DNA from: Chloroflexota bacterium
Lineage (GTDB): Bacteria; Chloroflexota; Anaerolineae; Anaerolineales; Villigracilaceae
Assembly: GCA_016234535.1 (NCBI GenBank)
Contig: JACRBH010000196.1
Location: 1-64,000, forward strand
Direction of reading: 5' to 3'
DNA length: 64,000 bases
Shown here: positions 16,533 through 62,905 of the stretch, one piece after another
How the letters are laid out: each line of letters begins with the position of its first letter
Numbering within the stretch: the first letter of the stretch is position 1
The notes under the pieces: model-generated
The model's input: only the letters and a program-made list of their open reading frames with translations
Databases searched by the model: none
Told to the model about the DNA's origin: nothing
Position numbers and translations under genes: made by a program

Positions 16533-17624
16533 ATGCCACTCATTGTTGACGGTCACGCAGACATCGCCTATAACATGTTGAGATACAGGCGCGACTATAC
16601 GCGCTCCGCCGCGGAAACACGCCAGATCGAAATTGGCAGCGTCACCGTTTTGGAGAATGAAGATTCCCTGCTTGGCTGGCCTGATTACCAGCGCGGAAAA
16701 GTTGCTGTCATCTTCGCGACCCTCTACGCCACTCCCGCGCGCTGGAACAAAAGCGAAAACACATCCCAAGTCTACAAATCATTTGATGAAGCTCACAAGC
16801 TTTATTATGAGCAATTGATGACGTATCATCACATGACGGAAACAATGCCCGATAAATTCCGCCTCATCGCATCTTCCCGCGACCTGAACCTGATTCTCGA
16901 CAACTGGCATTCCCCCACTGAAAGTGGACATCCTGTCGGCATGGTGGTGCTCATGGAGGGAGCGGATTGCATTCGCCATCCATCCGAGTTGGAAGAATGG
17001 TACGAACTCGGCATACGCCTGATCGGCCCCGCATGGGTTGGCACACGCTACTCCGGCGGCTGGAGAGAGCCCGGTCCCCTCACAAAGGATGGACGCGCTC
17101 TCCTATCTGCCATGGCTGATTACAATTTCACACTTGACCTCAGTCACATGGATGAACCGGCTGCGATTGAAGCGCTTGATATTTATCGCGGATCCATTGT
17201 CGGCACGCATGGGAATTGCCTATCCCTGTTACCGAACTCAAATTCAAATCGTCACTTTTCCGACCGCATCATTGAGGGGATTATTGAACGCGATGGCATG
17301 GTTGGAATCGTACCGTTTAATTCCTACCTAAAAGCCGGCTGGTCTTCCAGCAAAAATATCCGCGCAGATGTGCCGCTTAGCCTCGTTGCAGACCACATTG
17401 ACCATGTCTGCCAGATCGCAGGCGATGCGTTGCATGTGGGCATTGGTTCGGATTTTGATGGCGGCTTTGGGGTACAGTCTGTCCCGCCGGAAATTGACAC
17501 GGTGGCCGACCTGCAAAATCTGGTATCCTTATTACAGGCGCGCGGCTATTCCGAGACAGATATTGCCAACATTTTCAGTGGAAACTGGCTGGCGCGCTTA
17601 CAAAGGAACTTGCCAACCTCATGA
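16533..17624 (+). CDS. Membrane dipeptidase family protein (peptidase M19)
   Basis: A 363-residue metal-dependent dipeptidase of the renal dipeptidase fold. VDGHADIAYNML at the N-terminus supplies the first metal-binding His and Asp. The glutamate of VLMEGADCI, the histidines of LDLSHMDEPA and GTHGN, and GIGSDFDGGFG near the end complete the bimetal site. There is no signal peptide, so it is probably cytosolic. ATG 16533 is chosen because the longer frame would start inside the rpsA terminator. It overlaps the next gene by ATGA. Confidence 0.88.
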   Translation: MPLIVDGHADIAYNMLRYRRDYTRSAAETRQIEIGSVTVLENEDSLLGWPDYQRGKVAVIFATLYATPARWNKSENTSQVYKSFDEAHKLYYEQLMTYHHMTETMPDKFRLIASSRDLNLILDNWHSPTESGHPVGMVVLMEGADCIRHPSELEEWYELGIRLIGPAWVGTRYSGGWREPGPLTKDGRALLSAMADYNFTLDLSHMDEPAAIEALDIYRGSIVGTHGNCLSLLPNSNSNRHFSDRIIEGIIERDGMVGIVPFNSYLKAGWSSSKNIRADVPLSLVADHIDHVCQIAGDALHVGIGSDFDGGFGVQSVPPEIDTVADLQNLVSLLQARGYSETDIANIFSGNWLARLQRNLPTS

Positions 17625-18112
17625 CACAAAAACAACCTGTCCCTGCATCCACACCACAAGAGACTACGCCCCGCGAAGATAATGCGTCAACACCGCGTAT
17701 TCGCTTCAGCCTGGCGATCACCATCCTGGGGCTATTAATCTTTGCAATCGGCGCCAAGCCAATTTGGTTTAATTTGGATCGCCGTCCCGTAGTGGGATTT
17801 GTGCAAATCTCGGTTTTTCTCGTGGGGCTCGCGATCATCTGTCTCGGTGGATATATCGGCCTGCTTACTTTATGGTGGGGCTATGAACGCACAATCAGGT
17901 CTGACATCGGCGCAAGATTAATCGGCACGGGATATGTCTTTGCCGTATTTGCAGGACTGGCCGACATTTTCGGCATGGGCACGCAGCCTTTTCCGCAAGT
18001 CCCATTTTTTGGACCGTGGCAAGCCTCAGGGGTATTGATCGGTCAGGGGATCATCGCGCTCGGATTCCTGCTCTTGATTCCATATCATCCACAAAAAACT
18101 TCGAGAAAATAA
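17621..18112 (+). CDS. Four-span membrane protein of unknown function
   Basis: A 163-residue protein. A polar 27-residue N-terminus is followed by hydrophobic segments at about 29-47, 60-84, 105-125 and 138-157. It starts within the dipeptidase stop codon (ATGA, 17621-17624), so it is translationally coupled to it. I recognise no family. Confidence 0.7.
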   Translation: MTQKQPVPASTPQETTPREDNASTPRIRFSLAITILGLLIFAIGAKPIWFNLDRRPVVGFVQISVFLVGLAIICLGGYIGLLTLWWGYERTIRSDIGARLIGTGYVFAVFAGLADIFGMGTQPFPQVPFFGPWQASGVLIGQGIIALGFLLLIPYHPQKTSRK

Positions 18113-18142
18113 AATTTTCAGCCTATAAGGAATTACAGCTTA

Positions 18143-18182
18143 GAATGAAAAAGAGTCTCCATAATGAGACTCTTTTTCATTC
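18143..18182. terminator. Bidirectional terminator
   Basis: GAATGAAAAAGAGTCTC and GAGACTCTTTTTCATTC flank a 6-base loop, with A and T runs inside the stem. It lies between the convergent membrane-protein and SBBP/SLH genes. Confidence 0.85.
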
Positions 18183-18199
18183 TATTATTTTTCGTTTTC

Positions 18200-20587
18200 T
18201 TAGGGCAGGTTGAATGTCTTCACAAGGAAGACTGCCATCTGCGCGCGAGTGACTGGATTATTGGGACAGTAAATGCCAGCTCCGCATCCGCTCGTGATTC
18301 CATCAGCAAATAAATGCTCAATATAGTTAGCGCCAAAAGAACCTATAGAAACGTCGGTAAAATTACCAGTTGCTGGTGGTGGTACAAATGTACTGCTATG
18401 CATGGCACGCACGAGGAAGATAGCAGCTTGGGCACGTGTAACTGTGGCGGCAGGACAATATTTGTCAATACCGCAACCATTGGTAATTCCGTCCCAATAT
18501 AACTGTTCGATATAATCCGCACCAAAGGAACCAACAGGAACATCTGTAAAAATACCAAATGCACTGGGCGGTATATACGCGACGCCATGCATTGCACGCA
18601 CTAAAAAGATTGCCAACTGCGCACGTGTGACTGGAGCATTAGGGCAATAATTCAACGGGCTTGTAGAACATCCACCAGTAATACCGGCATTATATAAGCG
18701 TTCAATAGAACCATTAGACCAATAGAATAATGGCACATCAGCAAAGGTGGCTATTTTGATAACGCTATAAATCTCGCCAGCATTAAAGCTAATTGCGAAT
18801 GGATTGAGGGTCGTATCCACAATATTGCCGTCAACCATAACATTCAAACGGATCGTACCATTGCCGCTGCCCGTGTTGGCTGTTACAGTGTAGGTCTTGC
18901 CTGAACCACTTACGCTCGTAACAGAAGCTCCGACGATGCCAGAACTTGTTGAAAGAGTGAAATCATCAAATGCAGGTCCTATCATATCCACACCAGTGAC
19001 AGGTTCAGAGAAAGTGACCGTGAAATCCACAGTCGAAGCAGATGTGGGGCTTGTGTTGGCCCGAATAAGGGATGAGACAGTGGGTGAAGAATCATTATAG
19101 TACTTGGAAACGAAAATATCTGAATACCCTGAGCTTGTCAGTTCTGAAATCCCTGGACTAGGATCAAAGTCAATAGTCTCCCAAAAGTCTCCTGTTGTAT
19201 AAACATTACCATTTGAGTCTTGGATTAATTTGTTAATGTTAAAAGGGAAGTTGCTTATTCCTCCTAGGCGATTCGCCCAGACAAAATTACCGCTACGGTC
19301 TAGCTTGGAAATAAAATTGTCGGTGTCTCCTTCACTGATCAAGTTGAATAGACCCGGACCAGGATCAAAGTCAGCAGTGCCCTGAAAGTAGCCAAATGTA
19401 AAAATGTCTTCACTTGGGTCAACGATGATGCCGTATCCTGAATCATATAAATCTCCACCCATGCTCTTTGCAAAGATGAAATTACCATTAGTATCAAACT
19501 TGGAAATGAAGATGTCAGATGGTCCCGCACTTGTCAATTCGGAAATGCCTAAGTCTGGATCAAAATCAACTGTGCCGCTAAAATATCCGGTCATATAAAT
19601 ATTACCGATTAAATCCACAGTGATCCGTCCTCCACTCCCGCTTGGAATCTTTGCCCAAACGAAGTTGCCGTTGAGGTCCAATTTGGAAACAAAGACTCCA
19701 TAATAGAAATCTCCTGGATCAGTCAGGTTGAATATTTCCGGGCCGGGATCAAAATCAGCGCCTTTTTGATAGAAACCAGTTGTATAAACGTTGCCGGTTG
19801 AGTCTAAGGCGATGTTATTTACCTCTTCATTGTATTGTCCACCTATCCTCTTCGCCCAGATGAAATCGCCATTGCGATCCAGTTTCGAGATAAATATATC
19901 GTATTGGTAATACCCCTCCGCTAATAAGTTGAATATGCCAACGCCAGGGTCAAAATCAAGGGGAACAATATCACCAAAGATACCAGTTGTATAAACGAAA
20001 CCGCTTGAGTCTATGGCAATGTCGCGAACATATGTAAAAGCGCTGGAACTGCCAATGCTCTTTGCCCAAATAAAATTGCCAGTGCTATCCAACTTGGAGA
20101 CAAAGATGAAATCACTTTTTCCAATACCAATCAAATTGAATACTTCCACGCCGGGGTCAAAATCAATGGTTCCATGAAAGGTCCCGGTCATATAAATATT
20201 ACCACTTGCATCGATTGCGATAGCAAGGCCAGTTCCCCAATTCTCGATTCCGTTCCCGCCCATACTCTTTACCCAGAGGAAGTTACCGTTACTATCTAGT
20301 TTGGAAATAAAGATGTCTTGCACACCAGTGCTCGTTAAGTTGGTTATACCCACGCCAGGGTCAAAGTCAGAAGTGCCCCGAAAGTTCCCCGTAGTATAAA
20401 CGTTGCCATTTGAGTCCACAGCTAGATCACTGGCTTGATCCCAGTCGGCCCCACCCATGCTCTTTGCCCAAAGGAAGTCACCTTCAGCATAGAGTGGATC
20501 AGCCTGAACTGGCTGTGCGCCTATTTGCAAAAACAATGCGATAAGTAAAATTGAGAATATTCTGGAAATTGATTTTCTTGTAACCAT
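18200..20587 (-). CDS. Secreted SBBP beta-propeller protein with three SLH domains
   Basis: A 795-residue protein exported by a clear signal peptide (MVTRKSISRIFSILLIALFLQ, cut after about residue 29). About nine SBBP-type repeats of 50-55 residues follow (GNVYTTGxFxGTxDFDPG...SKLDxNGNFxWAKxxGG), forming one or more beta-propellers. An Ig-like stretch lies at about 505-605. Three SLH repeats end the protein (FADVPLFYWSNGSIERLYNAG and two relatives). SLH domains attach proteins to the cell envelope. It is the last host gene before the prophage and ends at a shared terminator. Confidence 0.85.
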   Translation of the reverse strand: MVTRKSISRIFSILLIALFLQIGAQPVQADPLYAEGDFLWAKSMGGADWDQASDLAVDSNGNVYTTGNFRGTSDFDPGVGITNLTSTGVQDIFISKLDSNGNFLWVKSMGGNGIENWGTGLAIAIDASGNIYMTGTFHGTIDFDPGVEVFNLIGIGKSDFIFVSKLDSTGNFIWAKSIGSSSAFTYVRDIAIDSSGFVYTTGIFGDIVPLDFDPGVGIFNLLAEGYYQYDIFISKLDRNGDFIWAKRIGGQYNEEVNNIALDSTGNVYTTGFYQKGADFDPGPEIFNLTDPGDFYYGVFVSKLDLNGNFVWAKIPSGSGGRITVDLIGNIYMTGYFSGTVDFDPDLGISELTSAGPSDIFISKFDTNGNFIFAKSMGGDLYDSGYGIIVDPSEDIFTFGYFQGTADFDPGPGLFNLISEGDTDNFISKLDRSGNFVWANRLGGISNFPFNINKLIQDSNGNVYTTGDFWETIDFDPSPGISELTSSGYSDIFVSKYYNDSSPTVSSLIRANTSPTSASTVDFTVTFSEPVTGVDMIGPAFDDFTLSTSSGIVGASVTSVSGSGKTYTVTANTGSGNGTIRLNVMVDGNIVDTTLNPFAISFNAGEIYSVIKIATFADVPLFYWSNGSIERLYNAGITGGCSTSPLNYCPNAPVTRAQLAIFLVRAMHGVAYIPPSAFGIFTDVPVGSFGADYIEQLYWDGITNGCGIDKYCPAATVTRAQAAIFLVRAMHSSTFVPPPATGNFTDVSIGSFGANYIEHLFADGITSGCGAGIYCPNNPVTRAQMAVFLVKTFNLP

Positions 20588-20710
20588 AACCTCTCCTTTT
20601 TTTGGTTAGATTGATTTGATCGAAGTTTTTATCATATTGCCAACTTGAGTTCATTATATGTCTTCACAAACCCTGAGTGCAAGAGGATAAATGTCACTTA
20701 CATTTTCAAC

Positions 20711-20741
20711 AAAAAAGCCACGCTTATAGCGTGGCTTTTTT
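20711..20741. terminator. Terminator, probably the original tRNA-Glu terminator
   Basis: AAAAAAGCCACGC (20711-20723) and GCGTGGCTTTTTT (20729-20741). It is bidirectional. In a chromosome without the prophage it would lie about 43 bp beyond the 3' end of the tRNA-Glu gene on the minus strand, the right place to end that transcript. It now follows the integrase gene. Confidence 0.75.
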
Positions 20742-20775
20742 GTATTGATGATGAACTCAAAAGGGTGCTGTGCCT

Positions 20776-22476
20776 TTAGAAAAGTGCCCCCACGGGTGTA
20801 GGGGATATTGACGCAGTAATTATACCCCCTCCGCCCGCTTCGCGGGCACCTCCCCCAAATATCCCTTCGGGAGTATTTGGGGGAGGAAGTGATTCGTGGG
20901 GGCTGTGGATTTGGATGATTCCAATTATGTTGTTAGGTGTGCGATCTACGATGACCTGGTGTATTGTGCCGAGGAGGACGTTTCGGACGATGGCTGGGTC
21001 TTTGCTTTGGAGGCGGGAGACCAGGCGTTTTGAGAAGAATATGATTTCTTCTTCAGTGAACGGTGGATCTGAGGTGGGAATGTTGGTCTTGGCCGAATTT
21101 AGCTGGGATTGGAGTGTGACTTCCTGCGTTTCGAGATCTGAGAGTTTGGCAAGCATGGCTTTGCTATGGCCACGCTGGGCGATGGCTTCGGTGATGTTGG
21201 CTATTGAACGGCGGAGGGCTGTGATTTGCTTTTGTATGTCTTTGGCGAGAGCTTTGCTTTTGGAGGCAGAGTCTTCGATGTATTTACGATCTTCTTCGAG
21301 GAGGGATTGCAGGTTATAGGGGTCTTCAAAAAATGCGGTGAGTTTTTCGATGACGTTTTTTTCGAGGGCTTCAGCAGGGATGGGTTGAAGGTCACAATTG
21401 CGGTTACGTTTGGCTCTGGTGCAGGCATAGCGGCGATAGTAGGAGCCGTCACGCTGGCCTGAGGACATGCCCCAGAGTGGCGACTTGCACTTGGCGCAGT
21501 AAGAGATGCCTGAGAGGAGATAAGTGGCAGAGTTTTTCCTGCGGGGGTGAATGCTGGTTGGGGAGGAAACATGCTGACGCGCGGCATGAAGCGCTAATAT
21601 CTTTTGGACGTTTATCCACGTTTCAGGGTCAATGATGGGGGGGCAATAGCCATCAATTGTATGTTTCCCAAAATGCAAAATGCCTATATAGAGTTCGTTT
21701 TGAAAAAAGGTGCGATAGGAATTGATGGCGGTGTAGATATGAGTCTGATTGTGGATCTGGATGAGGCTTGCGCCTGCGGCTTTCATGGCGAAGGCTTGTT
21801 TAATGCGGGGAATCCAATCAGGGTCTGGGACCCAGCGATGGTTGGTGCGTTTTTCGCCTGTGCGGTAATTGGTGGTGAGGATGGGTTCGCGTTTGAAGCC
21901 CGCGGGCGGCGTGCCTGGCATGGCTCCCTGTTGAACGATGGATCGCAATCCGTCTGACGCATCGATGGCGGTTTGTTTGGCTTTGTCTTCGTTGGATATT
22001 TCGATGAGCATTTCGATGAGGCGGCCAAAGCGACCTTCGGGGACATCGTCGGTGAGGGAGTGGATGACCACACCCCACTTGCGAATGATAGCTTTGTAGA
22101 GCTGCGAGTCATCCACGTCGCGGGCGAAGCGGGCGTAGTTCCAGATGAGGAGAGCTTTGGGACGATTGGCGGGAATCTCGTAATCGGCGACCATGCGCAG
22201 GAAGTTGTCTCTGCCTGCGGTGGTTGTGCCTGATTTGGCGGCGTCTTGATATGGGGTGCGAAGGATGAAGTTGTGTTGTTTGCAGTATTCGGTGAGGGCT
22301 TCGAGCTGACGCGTGATGGAGCGATCTTGTTTGAGGCCGCCACTGTCACGCAGGTAGGCGTCTACGATGGAGCCTGGGGGGATGGTGGTGGGGGGAATGA
22401 CGTGGGTGGTCAACGGATTGCTTCGCGGAGGTTTATTTTTCGCAACCGTAACCATCGCCGTCACCATCGTAGCCAA
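20776..22476 (-). CDS. int: Large serine recombinase (phage integrase)
   Basis: Up to 566 residues. The resolvase domain (about 36-180) has catalytic Ser45 in YLRDSGG, the RSITRQLEAL helix and the arginines of YARFARD. The recombinase domain spans about 190-300. A zinc ribbon follows (CAKCKSPLW ... YACTRAKRNRNC), then a coiled coil (about 395-470), the layout of phage integrases. The last 45 residues are unusual. A palindromic phage repeat (20824-20888) encodes the Gly/Pro-rich SLPPPNTPEGIFGGG part, and the attL core encodes PVGA before the stop. The N-terminal start is uncertain; candidates at 22476 and 22455 overlap the preceding gene. Confidence 0.88.
   Translation of the reverse strand: MATMVTAMVTVAKNKPPRSNPLTTHVIPPTTIPPGSIVDAYLRDSGGLKQDRSITRQLEALTEYCKQHNFILRTPYQDAAKSGTTTAGRDNFLRMVADYEIPANRPKALLIWNYARFARDVDDSQLYKAIIRKWGVVIHSLTDDVPEGRFGRLIEMLIEISNEDKAKQTAIDASDGLRSIVQQGAMPGTPPAGFKREPILTTNYRTGEKRTNHRWVPDPDWIPRIKQAFAMKAAGASLIQIHNQTHIYTAINSYRTFFQNELYIGILHFGKHTIDGYCPPIIDPETWINVQKILALHAARQHVSSPTSIHPRRKNSATYLLSGISYCAKCKSPLWGMSSGQRDGSYYRRYACTRAKRNRNCDLQPIPAEALEKNVIEKLTAFFEDPYNLQSLLEEDRKYIEDSASKSKALAKDIQKQITALRRSIANITEAIAQRGHSKAMLAKLSDLETQEVTLQSQLNSAKTNIPTSDPPFTEEEIIFFSKRLVSRLQSKDPAIVRNVLLGTIHQVIVDRTPNNIIGIIQIHSPHESLPPPNTPEGIFGGGAREAGGGGIITASISPTPVGALF
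20784..20796. other. attL core
   Basis: GTGCCCCCACGGG matches the 3' acceptor end of the tRNA-Glu gene at 62780-62792. It lies inside the last codons of the serine recombinase gene (minus strand ...CCC GTG GGG GCA C). Confidence 0.8.
20824..20888. repeat. Phage palindromic repeat copy 1 (inside integrase 3' end)
   Basis: The left arm CTCCCCCAAATA pairs with TATTTGGGGGAG and the loop is CCCTTCGGG-like. A small inner hairpin GCCCGCTTCGCGGGC precedes it. Unlike most copies, it lies in a coding sequence and lengthens the integrase. Confidence 0.75.
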
Positions 22477-23128
22477 GGGGATCGGGCGGAAGAACTACAA
22501 AGTTGCTTGGGAGTTGATCACATGCAATGCGCTGCCCTGGGAGAATGCAAAAGGATGGATAGGATGCGAGACAATTTGCAGGAAGTGTCTCTGTAATAAA
22601 TGGTGTGTTTGTTGGAAAGAGTGTTGATGTTTCAGATGGCAGGGGTGTATCAGTTGGGAGTGAGGTTTGCGTGGGAAGTGATGTTGAAGTAGGCAGTTGA
22701 GTAAATGTGGGTGATGGCGCAGGCGTTGATGTGGGCGATGGGTTTATGATTTCACTGACGAGAGCAGAACAAAAAACGATTTGCCAGCACATTGCAATGA
22801 GGGCGACAGGAATGACGCAGCCGAAAGGAATTTTTATTTTCGGCTTTCTAATAGCTTTTGAAATTGGAGAGGAAGTAACAGGTTGATAGTCTGAAGGGGC
22901 ATCTGGCTGATCAATAACTTTAGCGGCTGGCAGTCTGCTTGTTTTTGTAGATAATAATTTTGAGAAGGAAAGACCTGTGCCAGGAATTCCAACTGTTGAA
23001 CGGACGCCACGTTTGCCAAGATTGAGAGAAAGGCCTTTGCCTCCGATTGATGTTGATAGACCTGACTTGCTCAAATTGATCTTGAAGCCCTTGCCTAGCT
23101 TGAGAGATTTTCGGAAACGGAATGGCAT
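22433..23128 (-). CDS. DUF4236 - membrane span - excalibur domain protein
   Basis: A 231-residue protein. The N-terminal DUF4236 domain (RFRKSLKLGKGFKINLSKSG, about 1-55) is followed by a linker and one membrane span (about 100-122). A Ser/Thr/Pro-rich stalk follows, and the C-terminal excalibur calcium-binding motif contains the DGDGDGYGCE loop. The layout predicts a cytoplasmic head and a surface-exposed Ca-binding tip. It is not needed for phage growth as far as the family is known, and its place beside the repressor suggests expression in the lysogen. Its 3' end overlaps the integrase frame by 44 bp. Confidence 0.8.
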   Translation of the reverse strand: MPFRFRKSLKLGKGFKINLSKSGLSTSIGGKGLSLNLGKRGVRSTVGIPGTGLSFSKLLSTKTSRLPAAKVIDQPDAPSDYQPVTSSPISKAIRKPKIKIPFGCVIPVALIAMCWQIVFCSALVSEIINPSPTSTPAPSPTFTQLPTSTSLPTQTSLPTDTPLPSETSTLFPTNTPFITETLPANCLASYPSFCILPGQRIACDQLPSNFVVLPPDPLGYDGDGDGYGCEK

Positions 23129-24503: not shown

Positions 24504-24926
24504 ATGACTGGTCATTTTGGAAATCGTTGTAATTGCTATAACGGACACAATTCGAATTCAGGTCGTTGTCATGGCGACATTGAACACAATCACGCTTATT
24601 GCGCTGACTGTGTCCATGAGTGCGGGAAGATCGATCTTCAAGCGCCCAATTATGTTTTGTCAATTTTGAAAAGCACGTTTGATGGAACGACGGCGGAAGT
24701 GATCGCCATCTATTACTTCGAGACGGGATACCACACAACAGATTTTGGCCGCCAGACGCGAGAGTGGGTGGAAGAGCAGAATAAAGCCATGGGAATTGAT
24801 CCTGCAACTTGCGCGGCATATTCATTATGCTCGATGTTCGACACATGGAGCAACTATGAAGGCATGGTGAAATCCCTGCAGGCTGCGCTTCATCAGAAGG
24901 TGGAGAGCAATGTGTCCACAAATTGA
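24504..24926 (+). CDS. Cys/His-rich phage protein of unknown function
   Basis: A 140-residue protein. The first 40 residues contain six cysteines and five histidines in pairs (CNC, RCHG, HNH, CADC, HEC), suggesting one or two metal sites. The remainder is an ordinary helical domain (SILKSTFDGTTAEVIAIYYFE). AAAGGAG lies 7 bp before ATG 24504. I do not recognise the family. Confidence 0.6.
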   Translation: MTGHFGNRCNCYNGHNSNSGRCHGDIEHNHAYCADCVHECGKIDLQAPNYVLSILKSTFDGTTAEVIAIYYFETGYHTTDFGRQTREWVEEQNKAMGIDPATCAAYSLCSMFDTWSNYEGMVKSLQAALHQKVESNVSTN

Positions 24927-25845
24927 TATTTTCAACTTGCAAGTTGCTTCGGATTGGCATATTGATTTTGGTCTTTGGCTGAGGCAGACGCCTACACAGA
25001 AGCGCAGAGAGCGCAGTCAGCTTTCGGTGAGCGCTTACACATCAGACATTGAGCAAATGAGCCGCTGGTTTGCAGGTCGGTATGAGATCGAGTTTGCGCC
25101 CGATCATTTGAACAGCGCGAATTTGCAGGAATATTTTGGCGGGATGGAGTGCGCGCCTGCAACGTATAACCGCAGGCTGGCATCTGCACGAATGCTGATC
25201 AAGTGGCTGCGGTCGGTGAATGTTTTGGATTATGACCCGAGTGAGTGGATCCCGCTGCAGGATGCCACGCGGGAAAGTCCACGGGATGTCAACGAGGATG
25301 ATCGTGTGATGTTGGAATTGGCGGCTGAAGAGGGAGAAGGATCGTTGATCGGTTTACGCGATAGTTTGATCTTCTTTTTGATGTCCAATGCGGGGATGCG
25401 AATCAGCGAGGTAGTGAAGCTGCTATTGAGCGACTTGCATTTGGATGATGGATATATCCATGTGTTGGGGAAGGGCATGAAACATCGCAAGATCAAGATC
25501 GGCGGTCGGTTAGTGGTGAAGATCAATGCCTGGTTGAGTCGGATGCCTAAAAGCATCGAAGGCACATTGATCACTGATGAATATGGATTGTCCATTGGGC
25601 GGGGGCAGGCATGGCGGCGTTTTTGTTTGATCGCTGAAACAGCGGGCGTGAAGGTCACTCCGCACGAAATGAGGCACACGTTTGTGCTGCGCTATATGGA
25701 TGCGGTGATGGGTGGAGATCCCAGCAAGCTGCCAGCGGCAATTGATGCAGTGTGTCAACAAATGGGTGATCGGCCTGAGGTCATATTGGCATATTACACG
25801 CGGGCACGTGAGAGCGATATGCGCGCTGCGGCGGAGGTGATGTGA
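24910..25845 (+). CDS. Tyrosine recombinase (XerC/phage integrase fold)
   Basis: A 311-residue protein. The N-terminal SAM-like core-binding domain spans about 15-110. The catalytic domain has Arg in AGMRISEV, Lys in GKGMKHRK, His and Arg in HEMRHTF, and the nucleophile Tyr in ILAYYTRA. The usual LGH of box II reads MGD, so the second histidine is replaced. It lies inside the early operon, 4 kb from the nearest att site, so it may resolve phage multimers or act elsewhere rather than integrate. It overlaps the preceding gene by 17 bp. Confidence 0.85.
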   Translation: MCPQIDIFNLQVASDWHIDFGLWLRQTPTQKRRERSQLSVSAYTSDIEQMSRWFAGRYEIEFAPDHLNSANLQEYFGGMECAPATYNRRLASARMLIKWLRSVNVLDYDPSEWIPLQDATRESPRDVNEDDRVMLELAAEEGEGSLIGLRDSLIFFLMSNAGMRISEVVKLLLSDLHLDDGYIHVLGKGMKHRKIKIGGRLVVKINAWLSRMPKSIEGTLITDEYGLSIGRGQAWRRFCLIAETAGVKVTPHEMRHTFVLRYMDAVMGGDPSKLPAAIDAVCQQMGDRPEVILAYYTRARESDMRAAAEVM

Positions 25846-26762
25846 TGAAAGAGAAATTTATTGATCACAAGTTCAACAATGAAAGCATGAAGTTAATTGG
25901 CACAGTGAGCACTATTCTTCGTGAATATTCGGCACAAGGCTATCGCTTGAGTTTGCGCCAGTTGTATTACCAGTTGGTAGCACGTGCAGTTGTGGAGAAT
26001 TCGGTCAAGTCCTATAAACGGATCGGAAATCTGATCAGCGATGCGCGACTGGCTGGCCTGGTGGATTGGGGAATGATCGAGGATCGAGGAAGAGAGACCA
26101 ATTTCCTGAACCATTGGGATACCCCTGCTGAGATCGTACGTGATGCTTCGAGATGGTTCAGAATTTACAAGTGGGAAGGTCAACGCAATTATTGTGAAGT
26201 AATGGTTGAGAAGGATGCGCTCTCAGGCATTTTGCTTCCTGTATGCCAGGAACTGGATATTCGCTTTACAGCAAATAAAGGCTACAGCTCATCATCGGCA
26301 ATGTATGAGACGGGCAAACGGCTACATCGGATTGCGAGTCTGGAGGATATTGAAGAGATCCACATTTTCTATTTTGGAGATCACGATCCAAGCGGCATTG
26401 ATATGACACGCGATATTTCTGATCGCCTATCACTGTTCACTTATGGATTGGTTGATCGTGTGAATGTTCATAGGTTGGCATTAAATTGGAATCAGGTTGA
26501 GGAATGGAAACCACCTGAAAACCCAGCGAAGGAAACAGACAGTCGTTATCAAGCCTATGCAGATGAGTTTGGCGAATCATCCTGGGAATTGGACGCAGTC
26601 GAGCCGCGCACGCTGGCGGACCTGGTCCGCGATAGTGTGGGCGAATTGATAGATCAAGATCAATGGGATGAGATTGTTGAACGTGAGCGTTTGATGCGCG
26701 CTGACCTGGTCAAGTTTGCTGATGAATATGGCAAGCCAAAGAAACGAGGGAAGAAGAAATGA
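25845..26762 (+). CDS. Stand-alone Topo VI subunit A / Spo11-like protein
   Basis: A 305-residue protein. The motif SLRQLYYQLV (about 37-46) matches the catalytic-tyrosine region of type IIB topoisomerase A subunits (RxxYY in a winged-helix CAP domain). A Toprim-like domain follows: MVEKDALSGIL supplies the Glu and FYFGDHDPSGIDM the DxD pair. No GHKL-ATPase B subunit is encoded in the prophage. Similar A-only proteins have been reported from mobile elements (Topo mini-A). It may cut or relax DNA during replication or recombination. The start overlaps the recombinase stop in TGATG with GGAGG upstream. Confidence 0.78.
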   Translation: MKEKFIDHKFNNESMKLIGTVSTILREYSAQGYRLSLRQLYYQLVARAVVENSVKSYKRIGNLISDARLAGLVDWGMIEDRGRETNFLNHWDTPAEIVRDASRWFRIYKWEGQRNYCEVMVEKDALSGILLPVCQELDIRFTANKGYSSSSAMYETGKRLHRIASLEDIEEIHIFYFGDHDPSGIDMTRDISDRLSLFTYGLVDRVNVHRLALNWNQVEEWKPPENPAKETDSRYQAYADEFGESSWELDAVEPRTLADLVRDSVGELIDQDQWDEIVERERLMRADLVKFADEYGKPKKRGKKK

Positions 26763-26887
26763 ACCTTCAAGATCGTTTTGCTGAGTGGTTATTGGCGGCA
26801 TTTGACCGCTTTATGGATGCAGTCACATTTGGCGCGTGGACGCGGGTCCGCGGGGATGTGGTGCGTAATGTCAAAGTCAAGGAGTAA
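26759..26887 (+). CDS. Small phage protein (42 residues)
   Basis: It begins in ATGA overlap with the Topo VI-A-like gene and ends 4 bp before the next gene, whose AAGGAG it contains at its 3' end. It is amphipathic (DRFAEWLLAAFDRFMDAVTFG) with a basic C-terminus. The packing supports translation; function unknown. Confidence 0.5.
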   Translation: MNLQDRFAEWLLAAFDRFMDAVTFGAWTRVRGDVVRNVKVKE

Positions 26888-26891
26888 TGAG

Positions 26892-27611
26892 ATGAGCATA
26901 GGATCAATCCCAGAAAGCATTGAATTAATTATCAATGCGGAAGTTGAACGAATTAATAAAGAGCAATCCGAGAAGGAAGAAAGAGAGAAAGTTGATTATC
27001 AACAGCGGCTCGAGCGCGGCCGCGCTTACATCAAGGCTTATGTTGATCGGGAATTGGAATTCGTTCCAGAATATTTGAGAGAGTTTTATCACCATTTGAA
27101 TCAAAGCAATCGAGATGCCGATGAGCTTGCTCATTTATATGGAAGAGAAAATGAAAGCCAAGATGTCAACCTCGATCTAGTTTTCTATATCCCTGGCTTG
27201 GCTCCGATTGTGTATGACGTATACAACGAATCATTGGGATGCTTCACCGCGCACAGGAACAACGAGACCGATTGCGCAGTTTGGGGAGATTGGAGAAATG
27301 CATATAGACTGCGTGATTGTGTTGAAACTGTGCTCGTGATTGCGAAAGAGGAATTCGATAAATACCAAACGATTCAGTCTGAATATGATCTGCGAGTAGA
27401 AAAAAGGCGAGAACGAGAATTGGAGGAACAGCGTCGCGATTATGAACGCTCTGTGATGGATGATGCTATAGAAGAAGTTGAAGAAATGGAAAATGAAGTT
27501 TTGTTCGAAGCTATCAAAGATGATCAAGTTGCAATATTTATGCTGAAGGCATTTGTTGGCATCCAGCAAGAACGAAAACATTTTGAGCAGCGCATCGATG
27601 GGGCTGAATAG
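26892..27611 (+). CDS. Charged coiled-coil phage protein
   Basis: A 239-residue protein, very rich in Glu, Arg and Lys, with predicted coiled coils at about 12-50 and 150-205 around a short folded middle (DVNLDLVFYIPGLAPIVYDVYN). AAGGAG lies 7 bp before ATG 26892; an in-frame ATG 114 bp upstream was rejected because it overlaps the preceding small gene. No family recognised. Confidence 0.6.
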   Translation: MSIGSIPESIELIINAEVERINKEQSEKEEREKVDYQQRLERGRAYIKAYVDRELEFVPEYLREFYHHLNQSNRDADELAHLYGRENESQDVNLDLVFYIPGLAPIVYDVYNESLGCFTAHRNNETDCAVWGDWRNAYRLRDCVETVLVIAKEEFDKYQTIQSEYDLRVEKRRERELEEQRRDYERSVMDDAIEEVEEMENEVLFEAIKDDQVAIFMLKAFVGIQQERKHFEQRIDGAE

Positions 27612-28473: not shown

Positions 28474-28624
28474 ACGGACGTGATAAAGACGAGGTGGGGG
28501 TGGCTTTCAAACCAAATCAATTAGGGGTGGCTTGGCAAGCCGCGCGAAAATTCTGAGCAGGCCGGGATAAATGGCCTGGCATTGCATAGACGGATTTGAA
28601 AATCTTGAGGTTCTGGACGGGAAC

Positions 28625-31600
28625 ATGACGATCATTGATGACATAAAAGCGCAGGTGGATTTATCTGAACTCGTGGCTGAGACGAGTTCTGTTAAGTTGA
28701 AGAAAAGTGGGAAGGGTTGGATCGGCTTTTGCCCGTTTCACAGCGATAAGCGCAAGCCGAGTTTAGTTGTCTATCCCCCAAACGCAAAGGGAGGATGGCA
28801 TTGGAAATGTTTTTACTGCAATGAAGGCGGGAGCCAGATTGATTGGGTAAAGAAAAAGAATTTAGGATGGGATAACACGGAGGCAGTCAAGTACCTTGCG
28901 AAACGGGCAGGGATTGAGTTGCATGGAAACGATTCGAGCATTCTGCCTGAACGGACTGCGGCACAAAAGAAGCGGAGCGCGCTGCGGGTGGCGATGGATG
29001 TGTTCAAGCGGTGGTTGTTGGGGACATACGAGAAAGGCGAGCTGAAGCGCGCTGGGGATGCTGCTGCTTTCGAGTATGCCATTGACCGCGGCTGGACAAT
29101 GGGAACGATCCAGAATGGGGGGCTGCTGGGCTTCAGCGGGCGGGCTACTGCTGCGGAATATAAAGAAATGCGCGGCGAATTCCAGATGAACGGGATTGAT
29201 TTGCTTTCGCCTGAGGCGGTGATGATATTGGGCTTCAAGGGCGATGTGGCGGCGTGGGCGAAATCGCGTGGGCTTGATTCATCTGCATTCGGCGATAACT
29301 ATATCAGCGGGTTTATGGATAACCCTGGGCTGGTGTACGCACATAAATTTGATGGGAAGATCGAATACTTTTCGAGCAGGATCCTGCCAGGGTTTGATGA
29401 GAAGCGCAAGAGTCATAATCCGAATGCGGGATTGATCGGGGATCGGCGTGCATTCAGGAACTCCCTCTATCGCCATCATCATTTAGAGGGACAAGAAAAA
29501 GGCGCACTGCTTTACATTGTAGAGGGACAAGGTGACGCGAAGACGTGCGAGCAATTTGGTTTGCCTTCAGTCGGATTGTGCGGTTCGTCATGGCAATATT
29601 TGATTGAGAGTGGCGAGATCAATGATTGGGTGGAGGATTATGAGGAGCTGATCTACGTGACGGATGCAGATGCGGCGGGAGAGAAGGTGGTAACGGGGAA
29701 AAATAATGACTATGCCATGGCAAACGCACTCGGGGCGATGTTGTGGGTAGGTAGGACTGAGAACAAGACCTGGACGCGACCAGATGGGACTGAGAAAACC
29801 ATCAAGGATGTGAATGACATCGCACAATATTTGATGGATACGAAGGCAGATGAAAAAGAGAGCAATAGAATTGTCAACGCAATCTCGATGAAGGCGGAGC
29901 GGATTGTGGTGCTGGCGGCGCGATATGCGGGATCACTGCAAGGGAATGCACGAACGCAAATGGTCGGGAAGATCATACGTCCGATGGTTCTTTCGATACC
30001 AGAAGAAAAACGCGCAGATTTGACACGAGATTTAGCATACGCTCTATATCCGAATGTTTCAAAGGCAGTTGCTACTGCTGATTTCAATAAGTGGCTGCGG
30101 GCGCAGAAAAAGAGCGCGGCAAGTGCTGTTGAAGAAGAGATAAAACTACCAGAGGTTGAAACTTACGGCGGATGGTTTCCAGATAACGAGACGAAGAATA
30201 GCGGTCATCTGGTTGAGTTGTATTATGACAGGAAGACTAACAAGATTCGCCTGGCGTGGGCACACATCAATGATTTGAAGAATAACGTGCGCGAGATTGG
30301 TTGGGGGAAGGGGCTGACATTGGAAAATAAGATTTTGGTTCCGCCTGAGTATGACCAATTGATTCAGGAAAATATTGAATTGAATTCACCGGCGATAAAA
30401 ATGCCAACAGGCGTTGGAGAGAAATTTTCAACGGGAGAACTGATCAAGAAAAATTCAGATTTTTATAACCGTTATTTTTACACGGAGGATAAGAGCAAGT
30501 TCAAATTTTGCGGATCGTGGTCATTGAATACATGGGTGCATGATTGCTTTGATACGATGAACTTCCTGCGGGCACGAGGCGCGGCGGGAAGCGGAAAGTC
30601 GGATTTGATGTATCTGGTTGGTTTGACATCATATCGTTTTGCAGTGACGGCGGCGGTCACTTCGGGGGCTTCACATGTGGGACTGGCAAAGATTTATAAC
30701 GCTACAACTTTGATGGACGAGTATGACAGCATGATGAAGCGGGACGATGGAACCATCGAGGGGTTTTTGAAGGCGCGACCGATGCGAAGGATTGCGCACG
30801 CATTCAAAATGATGGAGGTCATGACGGCGAATGGCAAAACATTCGTTCCGAGCAATACGCCGATCTATGGGGCTACGATGCTTACGGGCTATAAGCCTTT
30901 TCAGGACAAGGGAATTGAAAGCCGATGCATGACGTTTGACCTGGCGCGGACGGATATGCTGACGCTGGATAAATATGATTTTGAGCCTGGGTATTATCCA
31001 CCTGAATTGGAGGATGAGGCTGAGGAAATTCGGAACGCGTGCCTGCGGTGGAGATTGGAAACATGGATGCCGAGGATCGAGTTGACCTTGGAACAACGCA
31101 AGAAACATAAGCTGAATGATGTGCTTGTTTCGGCACGTGAAAATCAATTACTACGTCCAATGAAGGTTATGGCGGTAGTGCAGAACGATATGGAATTGTT
31201 GGAAGACCTGTTCAAGATTGGGCGGGCAAACTATGAGGATGAATTGCTCCAGTTATCGGGGTCTTTTGAGGCGATGGTCATGCGAGCTGCGCTGGCCGCT
31301 GATATTGCGAAGGATGTGGCGTTAGGAATCAAGCCACAGGCAAGCGCCAAGTATGCGGAGCGCGTGAAGGGTTATGCGGAACTAGTTAAGATCGGGAAGC
31401 TAGGAAAGTATGGGACGGTGCGTTATATCCTATATAAAAATTTGGCGAAAATCCTGAATGAAATCTTCGATATTGAAAGCATTGACGAGCCAGAAGAGGA
31501 CAAAAAACGCAGGAAGAAGGCACAAAGTAAAACGGCTGGAGATATTTGCCGTGATGCTTTCCGAATGCCAGTAGAGCGAACTGGGGAGGGGTTTGTGGTG

Positions 31601-31813
31601 GTTTTGAGCCGCGAACGCTTGGATATTGCGCGGATGCGGCTGGGTTTGGATCGGGAGAGAGAGTATGACCCGAATTATGTGGAGGAAACAGAGAACCCTG
31701 AGCCTACTAAAAGGCCTGAGCTAGTGCAGACGAGTTTCGATGATTCAAAGTATGACCCGATGACTTCGAAGACGGCGCGGTGGTTGGATGAGTATAAAGA
31801 GGATATGGAGTGA
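28625..31813 (+). CDS. DnaG-type primase fused to a C-terminal ATPase domain
   Basis: A 1062-residue replication protein. The N-terminal CHC2 zinc finger (GFCPFH ... WKCFYC, about 35-85) is followed by a primase core with Toprim motifs YIVEGQGDAK and YVTDADAAG. After a linker comes a P-loop ATPase domain with Walker A GAAGSGKS and a Walker B-like TTLMDEYDSM, which probably unwinds DNA. ATG 28625 (IIDDIKAQVDLSELVAE) is chosen over 28571 because DnaG proteins open with this helix. It probably primes and unwinds prophage DNA. Confidence 0.82.
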   Translation: MTIIDDIKAQVDLSELVAETSSVKLKKSGKGWIGFCPFHSDKRKPSLVVYPPNAKGGWHWKCFYCNEGGSQIDWVKKKNLGWDNTEAVKYLAKRAGIELHGNDSSILPERTAAQKKRSALRVAMDVFKRWLLGTYEKGELKRAGDAAAFEYAIDRGWTMGTIQNGGLLGFSGRATAAEYKEMRGEFQMNGIDLLSPEAVMILGFKGDVAAWAKSRGLDSSAFGDNYISGFMDNPGLVYAHKFDGKIEYFSSRILPGFDEKRKSHNPNAGLIGDRRAFRNSLYRHHHLEGQEKGALLYIVEGQGDAKTCEQFGLPSVGLCGSSWQYLIESGEINDWVEDYEELIYVTDADAAGEKVVTGKNNDYAMANALGAMLWVGRTENKTWTRPDGTEKTIKDVNDIAQYLMDTKADEKESNRIVNAISMKAERIVVLAARYAGSLQGNARTQMVGKIIRPMVLSIPEEKRADLTRDLAYALYPNVSKAVATADFNKWLRAQKKSAASAVEEEIKLPEVETYGGWFPDNETKNSGHLVELYYDRKTNKIRLAWAHINDLKNNVREIGWGKGLTLENKILVPPEYDQLIQENIELNSPAIKMPTGVGEKFSTGELIKKNSDFYNRYFYTEDKSKFKFCGSWSLNTWVHDCFDTMNFLRARGAAGSGKSDLMYLVGLTSYRFAVTAAVTSGASHVGLAKIYNATTLMDEYDSMMKRDDGTIEGFLKARPMRRIAHAFKMMEVMTANGKTFVPSNTPIYGATMLTGYKPFQDKGIESRCMTFDLARTDMLTLDKYDFEPGYYPPELEDEAEEIRNACLRWRLETWMPRIELTLEQRKKHKLNDVLVSARENQLLRPMKVMAVVQNDMELLEDLFKIGRANYEDELLQLSGSFEAMVMRAALAADIAKDVALGIKPQASAKYAERVKGYAELVKIGKLGKYGTVRYILYKNLAKILNEIFDIESIDEPEEDKKRRKKAQSKTAGDICRDAFRMPVERTGEGFVVVLSRERLDIARMRLGLDREREYDPNYVEETENPEPTKRPELVQTSFDDSKYDPMTSKTARWLDEYKEDME

Positions 31814-35406: not shown

Positions 35407-35883
35407 ATGCCAGCATATAATTTTCAAAAACAATTTGTTCAAATGATCCTGGATAAATCAAAGACGCACACGATCCGCAGACGCAGAAAGAGACCAACCA
35501 AGCCTCGTGATATGTTGATGCTTTATACGGGGATGCGGACGAAGAGCTGCAAGCTGGTCGCTGTGACTAAATGCGTAAAAGTTGAATCAATTCTTTTGAA
35601 GCTAGATAAATCAGAGGTCTGGATTTGGTCGCCAGAAGAACCAGGTGATCTCTATTATCAAGAAGGCGAAGATATTGGCTCATTTCGGCTGATGACGGTT
35701 GAAGAAGTGAATGCTCTTGCACACGCTGATGGATTTGAGGATGTGTATGATTTCTTTGATTTCTTCAAACAATATAAGAGCGATTACCTGGATGATTTCG
35801 AGATCATCCATTGGGACACGGATTTGATTGTAGTTAATGGTAATGGTAAGGCTGGAGAAGTTCGGCTGCTTGGAGGCGCATGA
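35407..35883 (+). CDS. ASCH-like domain protein
   Basis: A 158-residue protein. The first 50 residues (NFQKQFVQMILDKSKTHTIR ... DMLMLYTGMRTKSCKLVAV) resemble the ASCH fold, an RNA-binding relative of PUA, found in phage genomes. The C-terminal part has LAHADGFEDVYDFFDFFKQY, as in other ASCH proteins. ATGA overlap couples it to the DUF5131 gene. Confidence 0.65.
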   Translation: MPAYNFQKQFVQMILDKSKTHTIRRRRKRPTKPRDMLMLYTGMRTKSCKLVAVTKCVKVESILLKLDKSEVWIWSPEEPGDLYYQEGEDIGSFRLMTVEEVNALAHADGFEDVYDFFDFFKQYKSDYLDDFEIIHWDTDLIVVNGNGKAGEVRLLGGA

Positions 35884-36797
35884 TGAGCAAAACTAATATT
35901 GAATATGGTGATCGGACTTGGAATGTGTTGACGGGCTGCACGATCAAGAGCGAGGGGTGTGTGAATTGCTGGGCAAGAACAATGGCGAAGCGGCTGAAGG
36001 CAATGGGGAGACCTGAGTATCAGGATGCGGTGGACGATGTTGGCAATTGGACTGGAAAGATCAGGCTGGTTCCCGCGCGGTTGAATGAACCGTTTTCATG
36101 GCGCACATCTCAACATGTGTTGGTGGAATATATGGGCGATCTGTTCCACCAGGATGTGCCCTGGGATTATGTGCGACAGGTTTTCAATGTGATGATGGAA
36201 ACCCCTCAGCACACCTATCAGACTTTGACGAAGCGACCAGAAATTATGGATGCTGATTTGAAGTTTACAGGTGTGCAGAACGTGATCCTGGGCGTGAGCA
36301 TTGAAAACCAGAAACGAGCCAATGAGCGATTGCCTTATATGCGGGCTATGGCTAAGCGCGGCTGGAGGACGTGGGTCAGTTATGAGCCTGCGTTGGGGCC
36401 TGTGGATTGGAAGGGTTGGGAGTTTTTGAGTCAGTTGATCTGCGGCGGGGAGAGTGGTCCGGGCGCGAGACCGATGCACCCAGACTGGGCGAGATCTGCG
36501 CGGCACTTTTGTCATTCAAATGAGATCTCGTTTTTCTTCAAGCAGTGGGGAAATTGGATGCCTGTTGCTGAGTTGTATGCGGATGATGGTCCTAATAAGG
36601 CGTTTGAATATCTGGATCATTGGCTGGCGCAAATGGAACCTAACGGAGCAATCCCTGTGATGACCGCTCCGCTGAGGCAGGAAGGCGGCTGGCATGAATA
36701 TCAGCCGTGCCCTGGTTCGTGGTTTATGGCGAATGTTGGCAAGAAAGAAGCAGGGCGTTTATTGGATGGAAAGACATGGAGTGAGATGCCGAAATGA
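35880..36797 (+). CDS. Phage Gp37/Gp68 family protein (DUF5131)
   Basis: A 305-residue protein. NVLTGCTIKSEGCVNCWARTMAKRLK (residues about 15-40) carries the cysteine triplet typical of DUF5131, which resembles a metal-cluster site. YMGDLFHQDVPWDYV, TKRPE, GVSIENQ and CGGESGPGARP are the other family blocks. The family is frequent in phages and of unknown activity; a radical-SAM-like fold has been suggested. Confidence 0.82.
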   Translation: MMSKTNIEYGDRTWNVLTGCTIKSEGCVNCWARTMAKRLKAMGRPEYQDAVDDVGNWTGKIRLVPARLNEPFSWRTSQHVLVEYMGDLFHQDVPWDYVRQVFNVMMETPQHTYQTLTKRPEIMDADLKFTGVQNVILGVSIENQKRANERLPYMRAMAKRGWRTWVSYEPALGPVDWKGWEFLSQLICGGESGPGARPMHPDWARSARHFCHSNEISFFFKQWGNWMPVAELYADDGPNKAFEYLDHWLAQMEPNGAIPVMTAPLRQEGGWHEYQPCPGSWFMANVGKKEAGRLLDGKTWSEMPK

Positions 36798-38269: not shown

Positions 38270-38320
38270 ATGATGATCACAATGCGAATAAAGGCACTGA
38301 GCGGGGAAAGAAGTTATTGA
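38270..38320 (+). CDS. Possible leader peptide before methyltransferase 1
   Basis: A 16-codon frame (MMITMRIKALSGERSY) with a strong GGGGAG 7 bp upstream. Its TGA overlaps the TTG start of the methyltransferase (TTGA, 38317-38320), so the main frame could be read by re-initiation. Confidence 0.3.
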   Translation: MMITMRIKALSGERSY

Positions 38321-39591
38321 CTCAGTCGGTGCGCGAGCTGGGAGGAGGGAGATCTGTATTGCTGGATAAGAATGGAAAGTTGATCGCAGGCAATAAAACG
38401 TTTGATGCGGCACAGGAGGCAGGGCTGAATGTTCGCATCGTTCAAGCTGGACGAAATGAATTGATCGCTGTTCAACGAGATGATCTGGATCTGGATGATT
38501 CAACTGGGGAAGCGAGACGCCTGGCTTATATGGATAACAGAGTCAGCGAGCTTGACCTGGCATGGGATGCAGAACAAATTGCTTCAGACGCCGCTTCGGG
38601 TTTGGATTTTGACGGAGCAGGTTTCCTCGAGGGAGAGCTGCGCCTGATGCTTGAGCAAGCTGGGGCAGAGGAAGAAGCGGACAATGATCCAGGTGATCAA
38701 AGTGAGAAAGCTGAAGAATTGGTCCGCAAGTGGGATGTCAGACCTGGGCAATTATGGCAGCTGGGTGATCATCTTATTATCTGTGCTGATGCAACGGATT
38801 TATCTCAGGTTGATATGTTGATGCAAAATGAGAAGGCATCATTATGTTTTACCAGTCCGCCCTATTGGGTTGGAAAAGAATATGAAGCGCAAACCAGTGA
38901 GGCAGAGATCGATGCGTTTATTGAAAAGATGGCCATGACAATCAACGCGGTGACACGTCGAGACGAGAGCCGAATTGTGATCAACACGGGAACTGGATTC
39001 ACAACGGCGTTTGATAAAAAATCAAAGAGGCATGTTTTGCTCTTGGTGGATAAATGGACAAATGCAATGCGGTCCCTGGGCTGGAATTTGCGGCATGTGC
39101 GGCACTGGATCAAAGAGGGACAACTGATGAGCACGTCACCAAGAACCGATGTGATCGACCAGCATAATGAATTTATCGCAACGTATGAACATGAAGCTGG
39201 ATCGCCGATGCTGTTCAGTGATTCCTTTGATGACCAGGATGTAAATCTATTGATGACGTTTTATCATACGCAAGGGAAACAACGTGGACAGGAATGGACT
39301 GGCGCAGCGTGGGCATTGCGTTCGCATTGGGATGATATTCGAGGGACCGCAAACGCGAATGGACATGTCGCGGCTTTCCCGATCGAGCTGCCATTACGCC
39401 ATTTGATGCTTTATACAAAGCGCAATGAGATTGTGTTTGAACCATTCTGCGGAAGCGGGACAACATTGATTGGGTGCGAAGTGATGGGGCGCAGATGCAG
39501 GGCGATTGAGATCGAGCCGAAATATATGGCGGCAACATTGGAGCGGTGGTTTATTTTCACAGGTAGGGAGCCAGTTCGCTATGGACAATAA
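38317..39591 (+). CDS. ParB-domain / DNA methyltransferase fusion 1 (TSPPY type)
   Basis: A 424-residue protein. The N-terminal ParB/Srx-like domain (GGGRSVLLDKNGKLIAGNKT ... AYMDNRVSELDLAWD) precedes a beta-class methyltransferase. Motif IV is FTSPPYW and motif I is EPFCGSGTTLIG. TSPPY favours N4-cytosine methylation. Compared with the downstream paralogue, the first 22 residues are missing; homologous codons (HNANKGTERGKKLL) precede the TTG but no in-frame ATG, GTG or TTG exists before them. No restriction endonuclease is nearby, so it probably protects phage DNA. Confidence 0.82.
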   Translation: MTQSVRELGGGRSVLLDKNGKLIAGNKTFDAAQEAGLNVRIVQAGRNELIAVQRDDLDLDDSTGEARRLAYMDNRVSELDLAWDAEQIASDAASGLDFDGAGFLEGELRLMLEQAGAEEEADNDPGDQSEKAEELVRKWDVRPGQLWQLGDHLIICADATDLSQVDMLMQNEKASLCFTSPPYWVGKEYEAQTSEAEIDAFIEKMAMTINAVTRRDESRIVINTGTGFTTAFDKKSKRHVLLLVDKWTNAMRSLGWNLRHVRHWIKEGQLMSTSPRTDVIDQHNEFIATYEHEAGSPMLFSDSFDDQDVNLLMTFYHTQGKQRGQEWTGAAWALRSHWDDIRGTANANGHVAAFPIELPLRHLMLYTKRNEIVFEPFCGSGTTLIGCEVMGRRCRAIEIEPKYMAATLERWFIFTGREPVRYGQ

Positions 39592-45897: not shown

Positions 45898-45898
45898 C

Positions 45899-45961
45899 CC
45901 ACCCCACCCACCCCCTCCCTGCCCTCCCCCAAATAGCAAAGAACGCTATTTGGGGGAGGAG
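45899..45961. repeat. Phage palindromic repeat copy 5 (TerL-portal gap)
   Basis: CTCCCCCAAATAGC-AAAGAAC-GCTATTTGGGGGAG, the longest uninterrupted stem of the family (14 bp). It ends 14 bp before the portal ATG, so the G-rich right arm overlaps its likely ribosome-binding region. Confidence 0.8.
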
Positions 45962-45974
45962 GAAAAGGAAAAAT

Positions 45975-61765: not shown

Positions 61766-61768
61766 ATT

Positions 61769-62704: not shown

Positions 62705-62707
62705 AAA

Positions 62708-62740
62708 CAAAAAGACCACGTTAGGAACGTGGTCTTTTTG
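62708..62740. terminator. Bidirectional terminator at the phage right end
   Basis: CAAAAAGACCACGTT and AACGTGGTCTTTTTG with a 3-base loop. It ends the tail operon on the plus strand and, 41 bp beyond the tRNA 3' end, the tRNA-Glu transcript on the minus strand. Thus the phage carries a replacement for the terminator it displaced. Confidence 0.85.
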
Positions 62741-62779
62741 TGATTGAGTATTCGAATGGAATACTGCGTTTATAGAGAG

Positions 62780-62792
62780 GTGCCCCCACGGG
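62780..62792. other. attR core
   Basis: The second copy of GTGCCCCCACGGG. It covers the acceptor 3' strand and part of the T arm of tRNA-Glu, so integration leaves the tRNA intact. Confidence 0.8.
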
Positions 62793-62899: not shown

Positions 62900-62905
62900 G
62901 CGATT

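Follow-up and report, generated by a model that had tools for sequence, protein, structure and literature searches.

The window, by which we mean the whole stretch of 64,000 nucleotides of the Chloroflexota contig JACRBH010000196.1 that was analysed, encodes a Mini-A, an ordinary member of a named and known family of Topo VI-A/Spo11-like proteins. Its predicted fold has the Topo VI-A/Spo11 domain pair, a winged helix with a candidate nucleophilic tyrosine followed by a Toprim domain, and no cognate B subunit was detected. We regard it as an even call that the protein acts as a B-independent, Spo11-like dimer, which would make 5'-phosphotyrosyl breaks or nicks in phage replication or recombination.

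A prophage gene of the Mini-A family

The features of the window on which the analysis rests are given below with their coordinates and strand; counts out of 37 refer to aligned sequences.

20776-22476, -, large serine recombinase, probable phage integrase
23524-23907, -, HTH (XRE/CI-like) repressor candidate
24910-25845, +, Xer-like tyrosine recombinase (Pfam PF00589, E 4.2e-15), its stop overlapping the Mini-A start
25833-25841, +, Shine-Dalgarno-like GGAGGTGAT just before the Mini-A ATG, within the end of the recombinase gene
25845-26762, +, Mini-A gene (Topo VI-A/Spo11-like, 305 aa), an open reading frame from the ATG at 25845 to a stop that ends at 26762
25956-25970, +, RQLYY, residues 38-42, with Arg38 and the proposed catalytic Tyr42 (both 37/37)
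26205-26216, +, VEKD, residues 121-124, with the Toprim Glu122 (37/37)
26379-26402, +, DHDPSGID, residues 179-186, with the Toprim DxD Asp179/Asp181 (37/37)
26583-26597, +, WELDA, with Glu248 and Asp250 (both 37/37), candidate counterpart of Top6A E342 (clasp)
26778-27611, +, 277-aa protein downstream, no Pfam match over the cut-off and no PHROG match
28571-31813, +, DnaG-type primase (CHC2 zinc finger, weak Toprim), 1080 aa
44305-45897, +, terminase large subunit, which marks the element as a tailed phage
45894-47372, +, portal protein, match below the model cut-off
49134-50132, +, HK97-type major capsid protein

The matches to terminase, portal, HK97 capsid, HTH repressor and serine recombinase are the reason why we take the element for a tailed prophage. 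No att-type direct repeats of at least 14 bases occur between 17501-22700 and 61701-64000, and the prophage ends are therefore undefined. Mini-A is located in the rightward early block, before the DnaG-type primase. Its open reading frame and its three motifs (RQLYY, VEKD and DHDPSGID) are as an earlier sequence-only reading had described them, and the coupling to the upstream tyrosine recombinase noted there is real, because the Mini-A ATG has one base in common with the recombinase stop codon (TGATG) and GGAGGTGAT lies just 5' of that ATG. Further to the right, 38317-39591 and 39506-40870 are consecutive, overlapping open reading frames with adenine-methyltransferase matches below the cut-offs; by eye their N-terminal parts are similar, as if duplicated.

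We identify the protein as a Mini-A because PHROG 6247 ('DNA topoisomerase') matches its residues 1-297 (E 1.3e-103) and because it shares 45% identity, over 97% of its length, with a protein of Pseudomonas phage NP1, the Mini-A example drawn in the figure legend of one review (PMC7614492). Mini-As are described, in passages of several reviews, as truncated or small relatives of the A part of Topo VI/VIII on mobile elements (PMC7614492, PMC8185306, PMC8084294). The window protein conforms to the family in its homology along the length, in being encoded by a mobile element (terminase, capsid, serine recombinase) and, according to predicted fold and conservation, in having a winged helix with a catalytic-type tyrosine and a Toprim Glu/DxD. 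At 27% identity, relatives include an archaeal plasmid protein whose deposited name is 'Topo Mini-A' (over 87%) and one encoded by Haloarcula californiae icosahedral virus 1 (HCIV-1; over 76%). Hits by tblastn came from 71 of 50,697 phage records and 40 of 72,556 plasmid records. The sequence-only reading had singled the gene out as an A-only relative of Topo VI-A and Spo11; the identity is supported, but there is nothing unusual about it within its family.

Sequence profiles alone did not reach Topo VI-A. Pfam gave only JetD_C (E 0.03); weak matches to JetD models were also seen at E 0.011 and 0.017; the NCBIfam search gave no match, PDB sequence searches with the protein and with the 37-row profile returned nothing relevant, and the viral-model search yielded one short unnamed protein below E 1e-3. 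The TP6A_N model, applied to 301 genomes of the phylum to which the window belongs, its own genome among them, had no match. Since the same model also misses the Mini-A gene in its own genome, this count tells us no more than that an ordinary Topo VI-A was not found there.

A predicted winged helix and Toprim domain with an invariant catalytic set

AlphaFold2, run on a 37-row alignment of the window protein and 36 relatives, returned a full-length model with a mean pLDDT of 92.7 that consists of a winged helix and a Toprim domain only. Left out of the alignment were L001-L007, refetched as L008-L012, L014 and L023; L017, which matched like L016; and L030, where the Mini-A frame (L030:8001-8880) is broken into 178 aa and then 108 aa in a second frame. 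In a Foldseek comparison with the PDB, Topo VI-A (1d3y) was the sole match with E < 1e-3 (2.9e-4, 309 columns); the superposition is poor (TM 0.35, rmsd 16.5 A), a sign, in our reading, that the two domains of the model meet at another angle. The Toprim half (residues 115-267) aligned with Topo VI-A at a Z of 11.8, with MksG and JetD at 10.8 each and with Spo11 at 9.4, and a designed Rossmann protein reached a Z of 9.0. Because this structural list had covered the Toprim half only, residues 1-109 were predicted separately (pLDDT 85.4). The winged-helix half alone had no Foldseek match under E 1e-3. On structural realignment Topo VI-A came first (Z 7.9, 69 residues, 2.4 A), only 1.0 above the next winged helix; Spo11, JetD and MksG were not in that list, which says nothing either way. 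Taken together, the structural evidence falls short of overwhelming.

Residues 11-82 of the model pair with residues 72-143 of the Topo VI-A chain at equal length, and Tyr42 is therefore in register with residue 103; Tyr103 is given as the active-site tyrosine of that Topo VI-A (PMC3102714). M. mazei Top6A is described as having Y106, R102 four residues earlier, and E202/D254/D256 plus E342 in the Toprim domain (PMC13040014). The spacing of Arg38 and Tyr42, with three residues between them, equals that of R102/Y106, and the Toprim triad is matched by Glu122, Asp179 and Asp181. E342 probably corresponds to Glu248 or Asp250, to judge from the ends of the alignment and the same source. Arg38, Tyr42, Glu122, Asp179, Asp181, Glu248 and Asp250 are identical in all 37 aligned sequences (window included), and Tyr41 in 36 of them. 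By eye, distant sequences carry Trp (L059), Phe (L052, L053) or His (L054-L057) at the position of Tyr41 and keep the second tyrosine. Genomes of the window's phylum also hold a longer Mini-A-like family (L054, L055, L056 and L057, with L058 partial; open frames of 449-483 aa), again read by eye: L054-L057 have HY instead of YY, the middle part is longer, and the C terminus carries a long extension.

The sequence-only reading had proposed structure prediction as a check and had named a fold without the CAP and Toprim arrangement as evidence against itself; the predicted fold contains both the CAP/winged-helix and the Toprim domain. Selection was estimated from pairs of genes. In the three closest pairs dN/dS is 0.061-0.086 at a dS of 1.15-1.68, which is near saturation; it is 0.14 with L023, and with L010 dS is saturated and the ratio undefined. 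With the PHROG 6247 match and the relatives in phage records, the low ratios of the closest pairs place the gene beyond a chance reading frame. At the level of sequence, purifying selection on Mini-A together with an invariant catalytic set argues for an active enzyme.

Neither a B subunit nor the Top6A latch has a detected counterpart

The Topo-VIb_trans model matched none of 40 records of relatives (L044 left out) and nothing in the own genome, the host assembly being 84% complete. A cognate B subunit in the host, which had been named as the discovery that would speak against an A-only enzyme, thus failed to appear there or in the relatives' records, although the models could miss a B that has diverged strongly. 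HATPase_c had no match in 30 virus records, and NP1 and three other named phage records matched neither HATPase_c nor Topo-VIb_trans. In the own genome HATPase_c has 78 matches; among those listed, one is on this contig (9238-9567), some 11 kb to the left of the gene for the serine recombinase. The earlier statement that the prophage has no GHKL ATPase holds at the level of the HATPase_c model. An A2B2 enzyme with a GHKL ATPase B, which is what Topoisomerase VI is, was not found.

The N terminus differs from Topo VI-A as well. Residues 44-67 of Top6A are described as a latch on DNA, and a triple mutant as being without supercoil relaxation (PMC13040014). In the register set by Tyr106 and Tyr42 this segment would fall before residue 4 of Mini-A, and by that register Mini-A is without the N-terminal latch segment that Topo VI needs for supercoil relaxation.

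Gene neighbourhood within the clade and beyond

Neighbours were compared for the window and 37 loci. The clade comprises the 15 closest loci, window included, and L017 was left out of the count; a quick tree groups 14 of the 15 with support 94 (not starred; L030 left out). Upstream of Mini-A, and on its strand, 13 of the 15 clade loci carry a relative of the tyrosine recombinase (gap -1 to 1743 bases), and the two without one have only 865 and 377 upstream bases available. Mapped on the tree, the recombinase label requires 4 changes, and shuffled labels require 11; in this count the truncated L013 and L014 stand as loci without a recombinase and the distant L042 as one that has it. A primase belonging to one blastp cluster is found within the next six downstream genes, likewise in 13/15 clade loci. 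The contigs of two clade loci, L035 and L036, bear the titles Anaerolineales and Anaerolineaceae. Between the window and the other clade loci the recombinase is 22-64% identical and Mini-A within the clade 65-85% (the two L030 pieces 64 and 61%); the slot is therefore kept and the enzyme in it differs.

The window's recombinase, the only one on which model identity was tested, is nearest to XerC and XerD (E 1.5e-30 and 6e-30, both below the cut-offs). PF00589 and PF07508 both match in 8 of 12 clade viral records (the serine match of G304 being below the cut-off), and the window has both as well; the genome loci L035 and L036 stand outside this count. The remaining 4 of the 12 have no serine match; two of them, whose loci begin near Mini-A, are also without PF00589. 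In G315, PF00589 matches a second time, in a frame interrupted by a stop. We considered whether the tyrosine recombinase might be the sole integrase of the phage and do not favour it: such a role is unlikely because a serine recombinase also matches in those 8 records and in the window. The coupled enzyme need not be an integrase at all, being Xer-like, with a separate large serine recombinase at 20776-22476.

Outside the clade, a recombinase relative occurs at 1 of 23 loci, 4 kb off and on the other strand; 7 of the 23 hold less than 6.5 kb upstream. Phage_integrase was matched by 1 of 91 neighbour proteins outside the clade (among the families listed), these 91 having been taken from 109 forward-strand neighbours of at least 80 aa and the tallies covering the best 25 of 42 and of 142 families. 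PHROG 2045, to which a window protein at 35880-36797 belongs, and Pfam DUF5131 each account for 3/91 neighbours of distant Mini-As among the families listed. The whole records of NP1, Pam3, Delta and JWF contain no PF00589 match.

Replication and recombination genes are frequent companions in annotated viruses. The Mini-A of NP1 lies between a ligase (plus a small ORF) and the annealing protein Sak4, with a Cas4 exonuclease and a helicase nearby. Phobos has an exonuclease, a polymerase and a helicase in the region, and BKO1-3 a Holliday-junction resolvase and NinB. Of 14 annotated virus regions, which were chosen by hand and have no random-gene baseline, 10 include a named gene of this kind in the part viewed; JWF counts among the 10 by a note only. 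No named replication gene was seen in the regions of AhaSv, AS73P1, BirdInFrench and HCIV-1 (4/14). Mini-A also resides on the small plasmids L059, L062 and L069 (8.8 kb archaeal, 15 kb Paenibacillus durus). For L059 and L069, no Pfam replication or recombination family was found in the 39 proteins scanned, Mini-As included (one plasmid contributed 24 of its 29 annotated genes, the other 15 of its 16), and on plasmids lacking such families the role of Mini-A may differ.

Possible activities of Mini-A

From homology, predicted fold, residue conservation and gene context we infer a dimer, DNA cleavage, its polarity and a biological role. Two Mini-A copies would form a dimer with two hybrid active sites, in which Tyr42 of each copy would attack the DNA backbone with a Toprim-bound metal. 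The product would be a 5'-phosphotyrosyl end and a free 3'-OH, in double breaks or in resealable nicks. Lacking ATPase and latch, Mini-A would more likely cleave in the manner of Spo11 than pass strands, and would act as a regulated cleavage enzyme rather than a strand-passing topoisomerase. Its likely task would be opening phage DNA during replication, which would let recombination or replication begin or intermediates be resolved; its association with genes for replication and recombination points to the DNA of the element itself as the target. Mouse SPO11 is reported to cut without partners as a dimer, to stay on the 5' ends and to be able to reseal single-strand breaks (PMC11922746). The double-strand-break or strand-transfer activity that the sequence-only reading had suggested would fit the conserved catalytic residues. 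In the limited literature collection searched, no paper turned up that had measured an activity of a Mini-A. Topo VIII enzymes, which are related, are described as weakly active, many of them seemingly inactivated (PMC7614492).

A bolder form of this idea, which we offer tentatively and hold to be rather improbable as a whole, would make Mini-A a stand-alone Spo11: latch-less, B-independent dimers that place programmed 5'-phosphotyrosyl breaks or nicks in their own phage or plasmid DNA and so launch recombination-dependent or nick-primed replication, as an ATPase-free viral counterpart of meiotic breaks. If true, it would connect recombination in phages with how meiotic DNA breaks arose. The window Mini-A is complete, under purifying selection and seemingly without B or latch, and it suits the question of whether a Topo VI-A relative works alone in a virus.

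Among the alternatives, an ATP-independent topoisomerase survives best, although we consider it unlikely. Here the dimer would reversibly open DNA and relax or decatenate phage DNA without B, which accords with the full catalytic set, with the family annotation 'DNA topoisomerase' and with the report that one topo VIII relaxes, and another cleaves, ATP-independently (PMC7614492). Neither a GHKL nor a transducer partner was found, however, and the relaxation latch of Top6 has no counterpart by register.

A replication initiator, quite unlikely in our view, would nick an origin, stay on the 5' end and leave a 3'-OH primer, like a rolling-circle Rep built on a Spo11 fold. The polarity of SPO11 attachment to 5' ends (PMC11922746) would suit it, as would the small plasmids (8.8 and 15 kb) without a Pfam-known Rep among the 39 proteins scanned, but that absence carries little weight and the plasmid gene tables are incomplete; moreover, the phage also has a DnaG-type primase, and no origin was identified. 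Quite improbable, too, is a nuclease against host or competitor DNA in the manner of JetD and MksG. These two are among the closest folds, and the weak JetD matches (E 0.03, 0.011 and 0.017) point the same way, yet no SMC-like partner appeared among the window proteins scanned.

That Mini-A and the Xer-like recombinase form one machine for site-specific resolution or integration seems very improbable to us. Their genes overlap, and the recombinase is upstream in 13/15 clade loci; however, outside the clade it is seen at only 1/23 loci, and PF00589 is missing from NP1, Pam3, Delta and JWF. A joint function is further weakened, as judged from sequence, because the recombinase is 22-64% identical while Mini-A stays at 65-85%. 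An inactive DNA-binding remnant, as the variable states of inactivation reported for many topo VIII enzymes (PMC7614492) and the broken L030 frame might suggest, is extremely unlikely in the face of an invariant active site and a dN/dS of 0.06-0.09 in the closest pairs.

Relation to known systems

Mini-A and Topo VI-A have the winged helix and Toprim domain in common, with the tyrosine and the Toprim acids in register. By that register, about 60 N-terminal residues of Topo VI-A, latch included, are without counterpart in Mini-A, and there is no B. Spo11 has the same catalytic module, but it is eukaryotic and meiotic and works with auxiliary factors, including a partner of the TOP6BL/Rec102 type; the window gene is a bacterial prophage gene for which no Topo VI-B-type transducer was found. 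In yeast Spo11, an N-terminal extension, which contacts Rec102/Rec104, and helices near the winged helix are described as binding the B-like partner (PMC11746154), and by register that extension has no equivalent in Mini-A.

The Toprim domains of JetD and MksG are alike to that of Mini-A (Z 10.8 each). Both proteins work with SMC-like complexes, however, and MksG is without a tyrosine candidate in the CAP position, whereas Tyr42 is present in 37/37 Mini-A sequences and no SMC-like match was found among ten window proteins scanned. Topoisomerase VIII, like Mini-A, is a type IIB relative on mobile elements. It usually carries its ATPase part in the same chain as its A part. Such a combination of A and B parts was not found in the window protein, which has 305 aa and a model of winged helix and Toprim only. 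Reviews describe Topo VIII as having Topo VI-type domains and as usually a homodimer; in one review the function of Topo VIII and of Mini-A is said to be unknown, and another states that none from archaea had been characterised.

The nearest comparison is NP1 Mini-A, which resembles the window protein in length-wide homology, mobile-element setting and the lack of a detected B. The two differ in their flanks, a tyrosine recombinase and a primase in the window's clade as against ligase, Sak4 and Cas4 in NP1. The recombinase-Mini-A-primase arrangement and the missing-latch argument are details that we did not meet in the literature searched; they do not amount to a new system. In Phobos (L072), Mini-A is followed after 9 bases by the gene for the terminase small subunit; such a placement would be compatible with a packaging-related role too.
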